Notes under the pieces: model-generated
Told to the model about the DNA's origin: nothing
What the model saw: only the letters and a program-made list of their open reading frames with translations
Database searches by the model: none
Assembly: GCF_004803635.1 (NCBI RefSeq)
Contig: NZ_SSWX01000030.1
Coordinates: forward strand, 3,023-38,500
Direction of reading: 5' to 3'
Length of the DNA stretch: 35,478 nucleotides
From: Lampropedia aestuarii
GTDB taxonomy: Bacteria > Pseudomonadota > Gammaproteobacteria > Burkholderiales > Burkholderiaceae_C
Shown here: piece by piece, positions 27,150 through 32,238 of the stretch
Numbering within the stretch: the stretch's first letter is position 1
Layout: each line of letters starts with the position of its first letter
Program-made: the position numbers and the translations under genes

Positions 27150-27210
27150 TTCTACACATGTAGATAGATTAAGTCTACATGTGTATTTGCTGTTTTTCTA
27201 CATTTGTTTA
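27150..27210. promoter_or_regulatory. CI/Cro operator-promoter region
   Basis: Three related sites: CTACA-CA-TGTAG (27152-27163), CTACATGTGTA (27175-27185) and CTACATTTGT (27198-27207). The first is an inverted repeat. They cover the divergent promoters of the cro-like gene (minus) and ci-like gene (plus). The third is part of a 14-nt string TTTCTACATTTGTT repeated exactly at the distal promoter near 30668-30681. A weak plus-strand promoter match is TTGCTG-17-AATAGT. Confidence 0.65.
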
Positions 27211-27236: not shown

Positions 27237-27917
27237 ATGTCGCTTGGATCTCAAATTAAGCATTACCGCGAAAAAATGGGCTGGACCTATGAGCAACTGT
27301 CCGAAAAAAGCGGTGTCGAGAAAGGCACGCTCAATGCCATGGAAAAACGAGGAAGTCAGGCCTCTAAGTTCGCTTCAGAAATCGCAAAAGCATTCGGCTT
27401 AACCGTCGAGATGCTCATAGATGAATCTGTGGATTACGATGTCCCATACCCTATCTCGCGTGTAACACCTTTACCCGAAGGTGCTATCCACGTTGGCAAT
27501 GAGCGCGCCAGGCCAATTTACGTAGTCGGTAAGGGTGCAGGTAGCCCCGCACCCGAAAGAATCTGGACTGATGGAGACAGACCCGTGGGCGCTATTGATG
27601 AATTTGTAATGGGCTATTCATCAGATCCGGAGGCATTCTTGATTGAAGTCGATGGGTCGAGCATGTACCCAAAGTACGAGCATGGAAACTTTGCCCTGAT
27701 TGAGCCCAACACCAGCATTGACCTTGAAGATGTGGTGCTGGTGCGTCAGGAAGATGGCCGAACCTTGTTGAAAAGACTGCTATCCAGACGAAACGGAAAG
27801 ATTGTTTTAGCAAGCTACAACGACCCGGCGCGTCTTGAGCTGGACGAACTGGATGTGAGTTGGATGTACTACGCAGCCAACGAGATAGCCCGCAAGAAGA
27901 TCAAGTCGCGGTTTTGA
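27237..27917 (+). CDS. CI-type phage repressor with S24/LexA-like peptidase domain
   Basis: 226 residues from ATG at 27237, with AAAGGAAG upstream; the longer frame from 27204 has no RBS. The N-terminal HTH (LGSQIKHYREKMGWTYEQLSEKSGVEKGTLNAMEKRG) is followed by a linker, then a peptidase S24 domain with Ser142 (VDGSSMYPKYEHG) and Lys179 (TLLKRLLSR). An Ala-Gly pair at ~101-102 (KGAGS) lies about 40 residues before the Ser, a suitable autocleavage site. It should maintain lysogeny and be inactivated by RecA in the SOS response. Confidence 0.93.
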   Translation: MSLGSQIKHYREKMGWTYEQLSEKSGVEKGTLNAMEKRGSQASKFASEIAKAFGLTVEMLIDESVDYDVPYPISRVTPLPEGAIHVGNERARPIYVVGKGAGSPAPERIWTDGDRPVGAIDEFVMGYSSDPEAFLIEVDGSSMYPKYEHGNFALIEPNTSIDLEDVVLVRQEDGRTLLKRLLSRRNGKIVLASYNDPARLELDELDVSWMYYAANEIARKKIKSRF

Positions 27918-27991: not shown

Positions 27992-28363
27992 ATGGCGCTG
28001 ATCACATGCCCAGAATGTCAGAATGAAATTTCTGACAGAGCAACAAGTTGCCCAAAGTGCGGATGCCCAATCAATGCAAGCATTCAACTTGCGCCACCCC
28101 CTGCGCCTAGTCCACAGTTTCAACCTCAAATGCAAGCCACGCAGAGCGGCACAAGCAGAGGTATCTACATACTAATCGCACTATTTCTTGGCATTTTTGG
28201 CATCCACAACTTCTATGCTGGCAGGATCGGTCCTGGGGTCGCCCAACTATTGATTACTCTGATCTTAGGGTGGTTCATTATTGGTCTTGTCATCACTGGC
28301 ATCTGGGCAATCGTGGACATAGTCGCAGTGAAAACTGATGGCTCAGGGCGCGCAATGACCTGA
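27992..28363 (+). CDS. Zinc-ribbon/TM2-domain membrane protein
   Basis: 123 residues, AAGAGGA before ATG at 27992. N-terminal zinc ribbon with Cys6, Cys9, Cys20 and Cys23 (CPECQNEIS...CPKCGCPI), then a Pro/Gln-rich linker. A TM2 domain follows (YILIALFLGIFGIHNFYAGRIGPGVAQLLITLILGWFIIGLVITGIWAIVDI) with the GIHNFY(A/G)R motif between two membrane spans. It directly follows CI and precedes the RuvC-like/kinase pair. In prophages this slot often holds exclusion or lysogeny genes; the function here is unknown. Confidence 0.85.
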   Translation: MALITCPECQNEISDRATSCPKCGCPINASIQLAPPPAPSPQFQPQMQATQSGTSRGIYILIALFLGIFGIHNFYAGRIGPGVAQLLITLILGWFIIGLVITGIWAIVDIVAVKTDGSGRAMT

Positions 28364-28678
28364 CCTGATCAAGCGCGCAGCAGGCTCAGTGCCAAGCGAT
28401 GCGTATTGGTGGGGTGATGGGTGGAAGCCCGTTAGAAGGCGAGTCAGGGCCCGCCCTCAAAAATCCTGAAAAGTCGACTAATCCAACATTTTGCTTACAA
28501 TACACACTTTTCCTAACGCAGGGAGTGAGTATTTAGGCATTAGGTTGCGGCTTCCCCGATCTAGGGCCCTCAGCAGTTGGGTGATCTGGTCCGCAGGGTG
28601 TCTCAACGGCGTAGACACAAGCTCATTACGCTATGCGATTCAGATTTACACCGGAGCAATAAAGAGAGGAAGGATGGC
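28364..28678 (+). other. Leader region upstream of the RuvC-like/kinase pair
   Basis: 315 nt with no convincing gene. A -10-like TACAAT is at 28496-28501 without a good -35. A perfect hairpin GTGTCT/AGACAC (28598-28603 and 28613-28618) lies in the likely 5' leader. A frame ending at 28682 overlaps the next start (ATGA), but it has only a TTG-type start and poor protein character, and a 45-codon frame from ATG ~28401 lacks an RBS. Confidence 0.4.
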
Positions 28679-29137
28679 ATGAATACCATCGGAATTCGGG
28701 CTAAGCCCGCAGAGGTGACATTCGCGGTCTACGATGCTGACGCTAACGCCATAATTAATGTCGAAACAATAAAGATTCCAAAGGCGCTATCGGCGCCCGA
28801 TGCGCTCAAGTATGTTCGAAACAATATCCTAGATGTCCTGCGGGAGTATTCGATAGACAGCGCAGGGCTGCGTGTAACCGAAAGCACAGCGAAGCAGATG
28901 AATGTAGAAAGAATTGAGATTGAGGGGGTGATTCAAGAGGCCTTTGCCAGTAGCTGTCTCAAGAGCTATTACGTCGGACAGATCGCAAGCATTTCTCGCC
29001 GACTTGGATTCCCGCGGGAGCAATTCAAGCGCTACGTAAGCAATGAGATTTCATATGATGCGGTCGAGAATTGGGGGGAGCTAAAGCCTGAGGCCAGAGA
29101 GGCTATTTTCGCGGCGCTGGGGGCTCGCAATGCTTAA
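28679..29137 (+). CDS. Small RNase-H/RuvC-like fold protein paired with a kinase
   Basis: 152 residues, with GAGGAAGGA just before ATG at 28679. The pattern resembles a RuvC/RNase-H fold: a first strand (TIGIRAKPAEVTFAVYD), a second block (LRVTES, with Glu68), then an alpha-helix (VERIEIEGVIQEAF) and SYYVGQIASISRRLG. The usual first-strand Asp is not visible, so it may bind rather than cut nucleic acid. Its stop overlaps the kinase start by 8 nt, giving a two-gene operon. I do not recognise a named family; the fold assignment is tentative. Confidence 0.7.
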   Translation: MNTIGIRAKPAEVTFAVYDADANAIINVETIKIPKALSAPDALKYVRNNILDVLREYSIDSAGLRVTESTAKQMNVERIEIEGVIQEAFASSCLKSYYVGQIASISRRLGFPREQFKRYVSNEISYDAVENWGELKPEAREAIFAALGARNA

Positions 29138-30173
29138 ACCATACAACATCGCAGATGTCGCATTTCAGCTCGACCAAGAGATAGGCCAAGAAGGTCGTAA
29201 CTCACAGGTTTTTATCGCACACGACCCTCAACTAAATGCGCGTCTTGTTATAAAGAAGGTTCCCAAGGCCGGACTTGACTCTGCTACATTCTTTTCAGAA
29301 TCTGGGCATGTTTATGCAAGTAAGCATTCGAACGTGGTGCCCATCCACTATGCCTGCCAGGATCAAGATCACATTTATCTCGCGATGCCGTATTACGCCA
29401 ACGGCTCCTTGAAAAAGTTGATGGAGCATGGCTTCTTGACCGTTCGCCAGATCGTGGTCATCTCTACACAGTTTCTTAGTGGCCTGCACCACATTCACTC
29501 CAAGAAGTTAGTCCACTTTGACCTTAAGCCAGACAACATACTTATTTCCGAAAGGGGCGAGGCCCTGTTGGCCGACTTTGGCCTAGCGAAGTCGCTCGGT
29601 CTGAATGGCCTTGCAGAGCAAGACATGTTTTACGGGAAGATGGTGCCGCCCGAAGTGTTTCAACAGGCCGCTTACGATCAGCGATACGACATCTATCAGG
29701 TCGGATTGATTTTGTTTAGGATGTGCGTGGGGGACGTAGAGTTTTACTCGCAGTACAACTCACACATTGTTAATGGCAACTTTGATAGACATGCATTCAA
29801 GCACGCTGTCATTAATAGGCAGTTTCCCAATACCAGCAATGACGTCTTTCCTGAGCACATACCTGACTCATTGATAAAGGTTATTAGGACATGCCTGCAA
29901 GAGGTGGGCCTGCGCTACAAGTCTGCGATTGACATCGTGAACGATTTGGCCTCAATAGAAGGTGAGTTATTGGACTGGCGCTATTCTCAGAACGGTCCCG
30001 GTAGGCGTTGGATCAAGAAGGTCGACGACATGACTTATTCGTTGGACCTCGACGAGAATAGGACGTCTATCGCAAAAAAACTCAAAGATGGAGGGCAGGA
30101 GCGTAGAATAAAAGACTACTGTACGGACGCTTTGAACAGGCAATCTACCAAGCGTTTTCTTCGGGAGCATTGA
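29130..30173 (+). CDS. Hanks-type (eukaryotic-like) protein kinase
   Basis: 347 residues. Kinase motifs in order: Gly-rich loop IGQEGRNSQVF (18-28), catalytic Lys42 in VIKK, hydrophobic gatekeeper region, HFDLKPDN (129-136; the usual Arg of HRD is Phe), DFG at 149-151, PPE at 173-175, DIYQVG at 187-192. About 70 residues of C-terminal extension with basic, helical character follow the kinase fold. The motifs are intact, so it should be active. Prophage kinases such as the Stk protein of phage 933W cause exclusion of other phages; here the partner is a RuvC-like protein. Confidence 0.95.
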   Translation: MLKPYNIADVAFQLDQEIGQEGRNSQVFIAHDPQLNARLVIKKVPKAGLDSATFFSESGHVYASKHSNVVPIHYACQDQDHIYLAMPYYANGSLKKLMEHGFLTVRQIVVISTQFLSGLHHIHSKKLVHFDLKPDNILISERGEALLADFGLAKSLGLNGLAEQDMFYGKMVPPEVFQQAAYDQRYDIYQVGLILFRMCVGDVEFYSQYNSHIVNGNFDRHAFKHAVINRQFPNTSNDVFPEHIPDSLIKVIRTCLQEVGLRYKSAIDIVNDLASIEGELLDWRYSQNGPGRRWIKKVDDMTYSLDLDENRTSIAKKLKDGGQERRIKDYCTDALNRQSTKRFLREH

Positions 30174-30174
30174 T

Positions 30175-30345
30175 ATGAAGAAAATTCGTAATGACAGAAG
30201 CGCCTATCTATCTAGATCCGCGCTCGCCCGACCACAAGCCGACCCGCCCAAAGAAAGTAAGACCAATCCTAAAGATCGCGGGGACTTCAGGGTCGATGCA
30301 ACAGGGTACTTTGTCTGGCCGAAAAGGATCAAGGCATCCTGCTAA
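30175..30345 (+). CDS. Small basic ORF downstream of the kinase
   Basis: 56 residues from ATG at 30175, two nt after the kinase TGA and preceded by GGGAG. MKKIRNDRSAYLSRSALARPQ then KDRGDFRVDATGYFVWPKRIKASC has better protein character than the overlapping frame starting at 30191 (72 residues). Probably the third gene of the operon. No family is recognised. The alternative frame cannot be excluded. Confidence 0.45.
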   Translation: MKKIRNDRSAYLSRSALARPQADPPKESKTNPKDRGDFRVDATGYFVWPKRIKASC

Positions 30346-30632: not shown

Positions 30633-30706
30633 TTGTAGAAGTAATCATAAAAAATCTACAATTTTATTTCTACATTTGTTGACAGATTAATATACATATG
30701 TAGAAT
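30633..30706 (+). promoter_or_regulatory. Strong sigma70 promoter with CI-type operators
   Basis: TTGACA (30679-30684), 16-nt spacer, TAGAAT (30701-30706): a near-consensus plus-strand promoter. CTACATTTGT (30670-30679) covers the -35 and TACATATGTAG (30693-30703) covers the -10; both resemble the CI/Cro operators at 27152-27207. Additional half-sites TTGTAGA (30633-30639) and TCTACAA (30655-30661) lie upstream. It looks like a pL/pR-type promoter silenced in lysogeny. Confidence 0.75.
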
Positions 30707-31449: not shown

Positions 31450-31726
31450 AGCAGTCGACCCAATCCAAAAGCTTTTGGCCACGCCCAAGTTCTACATCGT
31501 AGACCGCCTAGCCAACACCATCACGCACCGCGAGCTGACCAAGTTTGAGCTGCGCAACAAAGACGCCTTCCAAGTGAGCAAGAGTCACCATGGCACGTTT
31601 GAAAAGGCGCGCGCCGAGTTGCTTCGAGTCCGGCACGACGAGCAGATCGAGGCCGAACGTGAACTGGAGAAAGCGGATCGGCGGCTTGAGGCTGCGGCAA
31701 GTATTAAGGAGGAATCGATTCGATGA
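31442..31726 (+). CDS. Small helical hypothetical protein
   Basis: 94 residues. ATG at 31442 overlaps the preceding peptide. The C-terminal half is a charged coiled coil (EKARAELLRVRHDEQIEAERELEKADRRLEAAA). The N-terminal half has TPKFYIVDRLANTITHRELTKFELRNKDAF, an amphipathic region. No family is recognised. The stop overlaps the Rha start by 4 nt. Confidence 0.65.
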   Translation: MTEAVDPIQKLLATPKFYIVDRLANTITHRELTKFELRNKDAFQVSKSHHGTFEKARAELLRVRHDEQIEAERELEKADRRLEAAASIKEESIR

Positions 31727-32238
31727 ACGGCATCGTACTTACTGACAGCCTTGGCAGCATCATGGACAGTCGTGCAACCATGACCTGCAAAGAGATAGCT
31801 GAACTTGTTCAGTCAAGGCACGACAACGTGAAAACGTCTATCGAGCGACTTGCAAGACGCGGCGTGATACGACTTCCTGCATTGCAGGAAACCGAAGAAA
31901 TCAACAACTTAGGACTCCCGCGCAAAGTATCTGTTTATGTGTTTGAAGGAAAGCGGGGACGCCGCGACAGCACCATAGTGGTCGCCCAGCTTTGCCCGGA
32001 ATTCACGGCTCGAATTGTTGATCGCTGGCATGAACTAGAGGAACAACTCTCGCTTTCGCCGCTTTGGGCCGCACGGCTTGAAGTCGAGCGCCATGATGCT
32101 GAAACCTTCGCCGCAGCCTCTCAGGGTAGCCGCGCCATGCACGCACGCAAAGCTGCCATTCCAATCATCCGCGCAAAGCGCCAGCAACTCAAGCTCTTGA
32201 TGGAGCCTGAACTACCCCTTCTGCCTACTACCCATTGA
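31723..32238 (+). CDS. Rha-like phage regulatory protein
   Basis: 171 residues. MTCKEIAELVQSRHDNVKTSIERLARRGVI is a winged-helix start; KVSVYVFEGKRGRRDSTIVVAQLCPEFTARIVDRWHELE matches the core of Rha proteins; the end is helical. It is a second Rha-like gene in the window, different in sequence from the one at 8760. It probably regulates this operon or phage decisions. Start overlaps the upstream stop (ATGA). Confidence 0.8.
   Translation: MNGIVLTDSLGSIMDSRATMTCKEIAELVQSRHDNVKTSIERLARRGVIRLPALQETEEINNLGLPRKVSVYVFEGKRGRRDSTIVVAQLCPEFTARIVDRWHELEEQLSLSPLWAARLEVERHDAETFAAASQGSRAMHARKAAIPIIRAKRQQLKLLMEPELPLLPTTH

Follow-up and report, generated by a model that had tools for sequence, protein, structure and literature searches.

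In a prophage of Lampropedia aestuarii, a protein kinase gene overlaps the gene of a small protein that resembles the resolvase RuvC, and the question raised by this locus is whether such genes act together and, if so, in what. The window, i.e., the whole stretch of DNA analysed (contig NZ_SSWX01000030.1, positions 3,023 to 38,500; 35,478 nucleotides), had earlier been read from the sequence alone, and this sequence-only reading had proposed an exclusion or defence system without a named counterpart. We find that three genes recur together as a cassette, which in the window is laid out as follows:

28679–29137, + strand: RuvC-fold partner, 152 amino acids, phrog_3875 (open reading frame (ORF) call, PHROGs, AlphaFold2 model, Foldseek)
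29130–30173, + strand: Stk-family Hanks-type kinase, 347 amino acids, phrog_2361 (Pfam, PHROGs, alignment, model)
30175–30345, + strand: third cassette gene, small basic protein, 56 amino acids, isoelectric point (pI) 10.3 (conserved ORF; ratio of nonsynonymous to synonymous substitution rates, dN/dS)

The cassette is a further member of the Stk family, for which exclusion of phage HK97 by the eukaryotic-like tyrosine kinase of prophage 933W is already known, so the absence of a named system did not hold up. The role in exclusion or defence that had been proposed for it is favored through this family membership, by analogy, and we consider it probable that the cassette both belongs to the Stk family and would serve in exclusion. 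What seems to be new, as far as word searches of open papers show, is the constant company of two partner genes in which Stk is found, one of them encoding a probable pseudo-resolvase.

The kinase was indeed found to be complete, as had been claimed, and to overlap the gene of the 152-residue protein by 8 nucleotides (nt). It matched the Pfam Pkinase family (E 1.1e-41) and the serine-threonine kinase family phrog_2361 (E 1.5e-68), and the catalytic Lys and Glu, the H-F-D-x-K-P-x-N loop and the DFG motif were invariant in 22 aligned kinases, that of the window included; two more distant kinases (loci L152 and L187) have H-L-D instead. By Foldseek, the structural model (predicted local distance difference test, pLDDT, 82.5) was nearest to PknB/Stk1 of Staphylococcus aureus, then to Aurora and ROCK, and residues ~283-347 constitute a separate, beta-rich C-terminal domain that is common to the relatives. 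The PADLOC families mad6 (of MADS; E 9.3e-45) and PD-T4-6 (E 1.8e-34) are similar in the kinase domain, but no match extended past residue 304 among the 25 of 35 families listed, which leaves the C-terminal domain mostly outside. The RuvC-like protein had no PADLOC match better than E 0.033.

Membership in the Stk family was examined by comparison with phage phi24B and the Escherichia coli copies; the phi24B record calls its region similar to that of 933W, and no match was to the record of 933W. The window's kinase and phi24B Stk belong to the same phrog_2361 family and share 39% identity over 94% of the query. The likeness extends to the flanking genes, since in the immunity-region record of phi24B (L006) an unannotated RuvC-like gene (1484-1945) lies directly upstream of stk (1939-2985), and an ORF of 54 amino acids begins 2 nt after it. 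The location between CI and the leftward operator (OL) is also shared, in the window by pattern only. The two loci differ in host group and in the protein encoded in front, which is a TM2 protein here and a DUF3024 protein in the phi24B-type locus L010. Word searches of the open literature returned no paper that describes a RuvC-like gene beside stk; Friedman 2011 and Tyler 2004 may mention it. Should the kinase be a component of a conserved cassette, studies of ‘stk’ by itself have dealt with one subunit out of three.

The sequence-only reading had made the case for the pair depend on conserved co-occurrence of the two genes, and this was found. Viral contigs were scanned with a RuvC-like profile (47 contigs), a kinase profile (55) and a divergent RuvC-like set (66), together yielding 67 distinct contigs, the window's own included, and the two genes were adjacent in 63 of them; among these, the kinase frame is broken in L019, L028 and L034, and the kinase runs off the contig end in L155. 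The other four contigs end at a gene border, three (L018, L139 and L140) at the stop of the RuvC-like gene, and the fourth (L094) by beginning at the kinase start. These four ends fall exactly on the border; programs that trim prophages may mistake the kinase gene for one of the host. The gene order was the same in all viral-contig relatives that have flanking DNA on either side of the cassette. It is to be noted that many of these contigs are near-identical E. coli prophages, and that the loci gathered before the divergent scan represent 42 unique RuvC-like sequences; the kinase scan was built on motif patterns of the Stk clade and is silent on distant kinases.

Phage and plasmid records (50,697 and 72,556, respectively) were also subjected to translated search. 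The RuvC-like protein was found in 14 phage records, with the kinase adjoining in all 14; twelve are phi24B, Stx-type or other E. coli phages, some of them duplicates of one phage, and two are SPbeta-like phages of Bacillus. It was found as well in five plasmid records, and the same five head the kinase list. Viewed from the kinase, among the matches listed (40 of 41 phage records and 25 of 141 plasmid records), all those with at least 38% identity have the RuvC-like gene adjoining (14/14 in phages, 5/5 in plasmids), and from there the identity falls straight to 31% or less. Distant kinases without a RuvC-like partner do exist in the phage and plasmid records. The closest copies reside in two Pseudoxanthomonas genomes (identity 77-78% for the RuvC-like protein, 68-73% for the kinase), and a scan of genome contigs added three more cassette copies. 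Among annotated phage records, the relatives are phi24B and other E. coli/Stx-type phages (38.9% and 39.4%) and the two Bacillus phages (33.6% and 40.8%). When complete E. coli genomes (5426) were searched, 223 matched the phi24B pair, 221 of them covering at least 80% of it; among the 20 of these 223 records listed, the partner is variously annotated as ‘hypothetical protein’, ‘RuvC family protein’ or ‘crossover junction endodeoxyribonuclease RuvC’. The occurrence of phrog_3875 beside phrog_2361 thus offers a ready annotation marker for the cassette. A copy on a Klebsiella plasmid (L012, 4456-6072) has an intact RuvC-like gene but a disrupted kinase frame, with insertion sequences downstream. 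One of 14 control genomes, that of Bacteroides ihuae, has a phrog_3875 match, and the family may therefore reach the Bacteroidota.

The small ORF behind the kinase had been mentioned only in passing; it is present and is in fact a conserved third gene. When defined as the first ORF of at least 30 codons starting near the kinase stop, it was present in 55 of 55 loci with an intact kinase (of 60 loci, the window being counted three times), its start lying between -7 and +23 nt from that stop. Nine further kinase loci also have it, and the 64 loci in all encode 35 unique proteins of 50-64 amino acids. In more divergent loci, the start lies up to +53 nt from the stop and the length reaches 75 and 84 amino acids, although the 84-residue product (L187) does not look similar to the other third proteins. 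They are basic, the pI ranging from 9.3 to 11.1 over 28 unique sequences; the N terminus is rich in Arg, and an aromatic residue lies close to the C terminus. The dN/dS ratio could be computed for seven of ten pairs, in which it was 0.10-0.48, the remaining three being saturated; the third gene is under purifying selection. This selection, along with the gene order that recurs in the viral relatives, argues for more than chance.

The evolutionary distances lead to the same end. Pairwise distances of the RuvC-like protein and the kinase were strongly correlated (Spearman 0.91, 36 loci, 0/2000 permutations), as were those of the kinase and the third protein (0.87, 36 loci, 0/2000 permutations). 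Against CI, in contrast, the RuvC-like protein gave a rho of 0.08 in the 13 loci with a comparable CI (549/2000 permutations), while in the same 13 loci it gave 0.96 against the kinase. These results document that the three cassette proteins share one history, separate from that of the repressor, and that the cassette therefore passes as one block from one repressor background to another.

For the 152-residue protein, a tentative RuvC/RNase-H pattern had been noted and a structural search recommended; the fold was borne out by that search. The AlphaFold2 model, obtained with 25 sequences as input, scored a pLDDT of 93 and a predicted template modelling score (pTM) of 0.88, and when it was compared with the PDB by Foldseek, the top 13 matches were all RuvC (best E 1.4e-8, template modelling (TM) score 0.73). 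The protein also matched phrog_3875, ‘RuvC-like Holliday junction resolvase’ (E 1.4e-35). At the level of primary structure the kinship is faint: no Pfam family scored above its cut-off, RuvC (PF02075) included, a profile search of PDB sequences gave at best an unrelated match (E 0.25), and the hhalign probability against RuvC was 24 and 19, as compared to 1.8 or less in 100 column shuffles and 0.1 for the reversed profile. DUF3010 (PF11215), considered as a candidate parent family for its similar motif, gave hhalign probabilities of 12 and 23 with one member, again with no Pfam match.

What the protein shares with RuvC, then, is the fold and the register of strand 1, in which hhalign placed the Arg of a G-I-R motif on the Asp of RuvC's I-L-G-I-D. 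This first-strand Asp is required in RuvC-type nucleases. All 42 unique RuvC-like sequences have Arg7 at its position, and also invariant in them are Arg47, Arg65, Glu68, Arg78, Glu82, Glu87 and Glu141, whereas position 138 varies. Thirteen more divergent sequences, one of them a repeat, have G-I-R as well; other positions change in them, such as Arg65, which is Lys in L187. By eye, from the secondary structure of the model and with residue numbers that we take to be those of the RuvC catalytic residues, Glu68 and Glu141 were assigned to RuvC's later catalytic positions, with Glu in place of the last Asp. The Arg in place of the first catalytic Asp makes a nuclease role doubtful, and on alignment and model together the protein is probably a pseudo-resolvase, i.e., a resolvase fold that lacks the first of its metal ligands.

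How such a protein might serve a kinase can be considered against what is published on Stk, which is cited here and below from passages of the papers concerned. The kinase of 933W is transcribed together with cI and causes an infection by HK97 to abort (PMC3564112; PMC8008677); it becomes active when HK97 infects, and its activity beforehand is limited, if there is any (PMC3681748). In phi24B, the transcript levels of stk and cI are unaltered on induction (PMC4651098). The passages found give no account of how HK97 infection switches 933W Stk on. We propose that in the uninfected lysogen the kinase would be idle, and that upon infection by a rival phage, the replication or recombination machinery of the latter, or branched DNA, would be recognised via the RuvC-fold subunit. 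This subunit, having kept the resolvase shape and lost the first catalytic Asp, would be a sensor or gate and not a nuclease; the activated kinase would phosphorylate host and/or phage proteins, the infection would abort, and the small basic protein may modulate the kinase as a substrate, inhibitor or docking peptide. That the RuvC-like protein is a sensor is offered tentatively, as somewhat short of an even chance. A more explicit version is possible, if on the doubtful side, namely that Stk exclusion is a structure-gated switch of three components, in which a dead resolvase recognises recombination intermediates or an Erf/Sak annealing protein and activates the tyrosine kinase, with the small protein setting the threshold. 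If true, a resolvase fold whose first catalytic Asp is replaced would have found a second use as the sensor of a protein kinase.

A recombination sensor in the shape of a resolvase fits the observation that unrelated defence systems target phage recombinases, namely AbiK and a staphylococcal Abi system, the latter referenced to the paper on the Stk2 kinase (PMC11846896). Staphylococcus Stk2 resembles the present cassette as a kinase-based phage defence, but only residues 85-194 of our kinase match the Stk2 model (E 6.3e-10), with no full-length match, and Stk2 is described as a single, host-encoded locus (PMC11341870). If the three-component switch is real, Stk2 would have come to the same trigger by convergence, with a different architecture. 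On the side of the trigger, the gene table of HK97 runs in the order Gp40, erf, a small gene annotated as ‘recombinase’, and kil (Gp43), which by order makes erf gp41, and the erf product matches Pfam ERF (PF04404, E 2.1e-44). In the work of Friedman in 2011, HK97 orf41 is reported to activate Stk. In the HK97 locus (L116:176-1043), the small ‘recombinase’-annotated neighbour of erf has no Pfam match.

Several observations weigh against this proposal. The cassette is rare outside phages (2 of 100 genomes from relatives, 1 of 369 at class level and 2 of 398 at phylum level, its own genome included each time), and no ERF match was found in the window's own genome. The median pI of the RuvC-like proteins is 6.4 (35 sequences) and that of 14 genuine RuvC cores is 7.0, such that charge does not mark a DNA binder; as a gauge of DNA binding it was discarded as uninformative, the values being about the same. 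The idea that the small protein is a conserved substrate for tyrosine phosphorylation was likewise abandoned in its strict form: a Tyr occurs in the last 16 residues in only 29 of the 35 unique sequences, which weakens it, and some of the more divergent small proteins have Phe in place of this Tyr. The annealing protein of lambda is of the Red type and not ERF. Lambda, too, is excluded from a 933W lysogen, and a swap of the immunity region relieves it (PMC6989128). Either Stk is not the cause of that exclusion or it has another trigger, and if Stk is the cause, recombination is not the sole possible trigger. Finally, the passages found in the 933W literature name the kinase alone, and hence the kinase might suffice; for the Lampropedia copy, exclusion is what we infer, and so are the roles of its two partner proteins.

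Other accounts of the locus were therefore weighed, and the likelihoods given to them concern the role of the RuvC-like protein. The one that survives best, though we hold it unlikely, is that the RuvC-like protein, or the small third protein, is an antitoxin or inhibitor that holds the kinase off until infection removes it. A small upstream gene that is translationally coupled to the kinase gene would suit such an inhibitor, and so would the near-silence of the 933W kinase before infection (PMC3681748). The kinase-kinase-phosphatase (KKP) system of Pseudomonas aeruginosa, which is encoded by a prophage, is moreover described as toxin-antitoxin-based (PMC11341870). KKP resembles the cassette as a prophage-borne Ser/Thr kinase module that serves in defence, as is probable for the cassette, but it combines kinases with a phosphatase, whereas here there is one kinase and no phosphatase among the five block proteins scanned with Pfam, and the word ‘RuvC’ is absent from the text of PMC11341870. 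The broken kinases beside an intact RuvC-like gene (L012, L019, L028 and L034) fit an inhibitor, but they fit other roles too.

Less likely still is that the RuvC-like protein works as a nuclease, active or structure-specific, and is the effector of the system, switched on when the kinase phosphorylates it. For this speak the clear RuvC fold, the retention of Glu68 and Glu141 in 42/42 sequences, and the tight translational coupling of the two genes; but the Arg that replaces the first-strand Asp is just as constant (42/42), position 138 is not conserved, and the published exclusion is ascribed to the kinase in the passages cited above.

Slightly behind it, and also improbable, is the account by which the cassette acts in the control of lysogeny of its own prophage, as in repressor stability or induction, with exclusion as a by-product. 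It draws on the location of the cassette between cI and OL, both here and in phi24B, and on KKP, which is active in prophage control as well as in defence (PMC11341870). The context features of the window that bear on this location are as follows:

27151–27210: putative rightward operator (OR), three near-palindromic sites at 27151, 27174 and 27197 with 23-nt spacing (pattern only)
27237–27917, + strand: CI-like repressor, helix-turn-helix (HTH) and S24 peptidase domain (Pfam)
27992–28363, + strand: zinc-ribbon and TM2 membrane protein, phrog_10292 (Pfam PF05154 E 2.9e-10, N-terminal zinc ribbon)
30669–30704: putative OL, sites at 30669 and 30691 (pattern only)
30679–30706, + strand: pL-like promoter TTGACA-16-TAGAAT, 11 of 12 matches, overlapping the putative OL

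The tape measure, portal, head and terminase genes found in it show the prophage to be a tailed one. That the set lies behind CI and a TM2 protein, as the sequence-only reading had it, was confirmed by the matches to HTH, S24 and PF05154. The lysogeny slot that it had assigned also agrees, by pattern, with the operator-like clusters and the pL-like promoter that flank the block; the cassette thus appears to sit between CI and OL, like rexAB in lambda. The putative OR, whose sites have 0, 2 and 1 mismatches, respectively, on the best strand, lies in the interval that separates the CI-like gene from a small, divergent one, and across the window, sites with no more than one mismatch were confined to 27151-27210 and 30669-30704. 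With up to three mismatches allowed, the whole window gave 22 matches as against 17.3 by chance, which is not significant; the operator argument is therefore one from the clustering of the best sites alone. Promoter-like sites overall were not commoner than in shuffled sequences (4 against a mean of 4.4), and a candidate promoter directly 5' of the RuvC-like gene (28474-28501) was set aside, its 9 of 12 matches being no better than in shuffles. Immediately 5' of the start of the RuvC-like gene is the purine-rich AGAGAGGAAGG. In lambda, RexAB occupies the slot between cI and OL. The likeness to RexAB is one of slot: extra lysogeny genes lie there on the cI transcript (here by position), but the proteins are others, a kinase and a RuvC fold in the present case. 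RexAB is on the PRM transcript (PMC3564112).

Against service to the prophage's own repressor stands the separate history of the cassette and CI (rho 0.08, n=13). A CI-like gene was detected upstream in at least 17 of 44 loci (phmmer, three queries, within the upstream bases present), and this count is a lower limit, since in five more of 19 loci (L015, L023, L059, L104 and L139) a repressor-like HTH gene was recognised by eye. The cassette also occurs on plasmids and, by eye, at sites without an upstream repressor-like gene. As for ordinary linkage, in which the kinase and RuvC-like genes are two unrelated, co-travelling morons, it is very improbable: morons do cluster in lambdoid immunity regions, but the pair is never apart in the 67 viral contigs, contig ends excepted, its order is kept from Bacillus to Pseudomonadota phages, and the distance matrices match.

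The TM2 protein in front of the cassette had no convincing copy in 11 other cassette loci searched, two of which have short flanks, and the DUF3024-annotated protein that replaces it in L010 does so in Providencia (L011) as well. Behind the putative OL of the window lies a Rha/antirepressor-like gene (31723-32238; phrog_63, E 1.2e-22), for which Pfam Rha scored slightly below the cut-off. Directly upstream of other copies of the cassette, PADLOC identified a dGTPase in L005 (3641-4957, E 4e-145), a TIR effector in L104 (1459-2460, E 2e-34), and DarT (E 4e-32) with DarG (E 8e-107) in the Mesorhizobium plasmid locus L008 (2221-3941). These four genes, which looked like defence genes, were picked by eye from the upstream ORFs of 19 loci and from annotation tables, and are examples, not a rate; the sites upstream of the cassette in L005 and L104 are possible defence hot spots.

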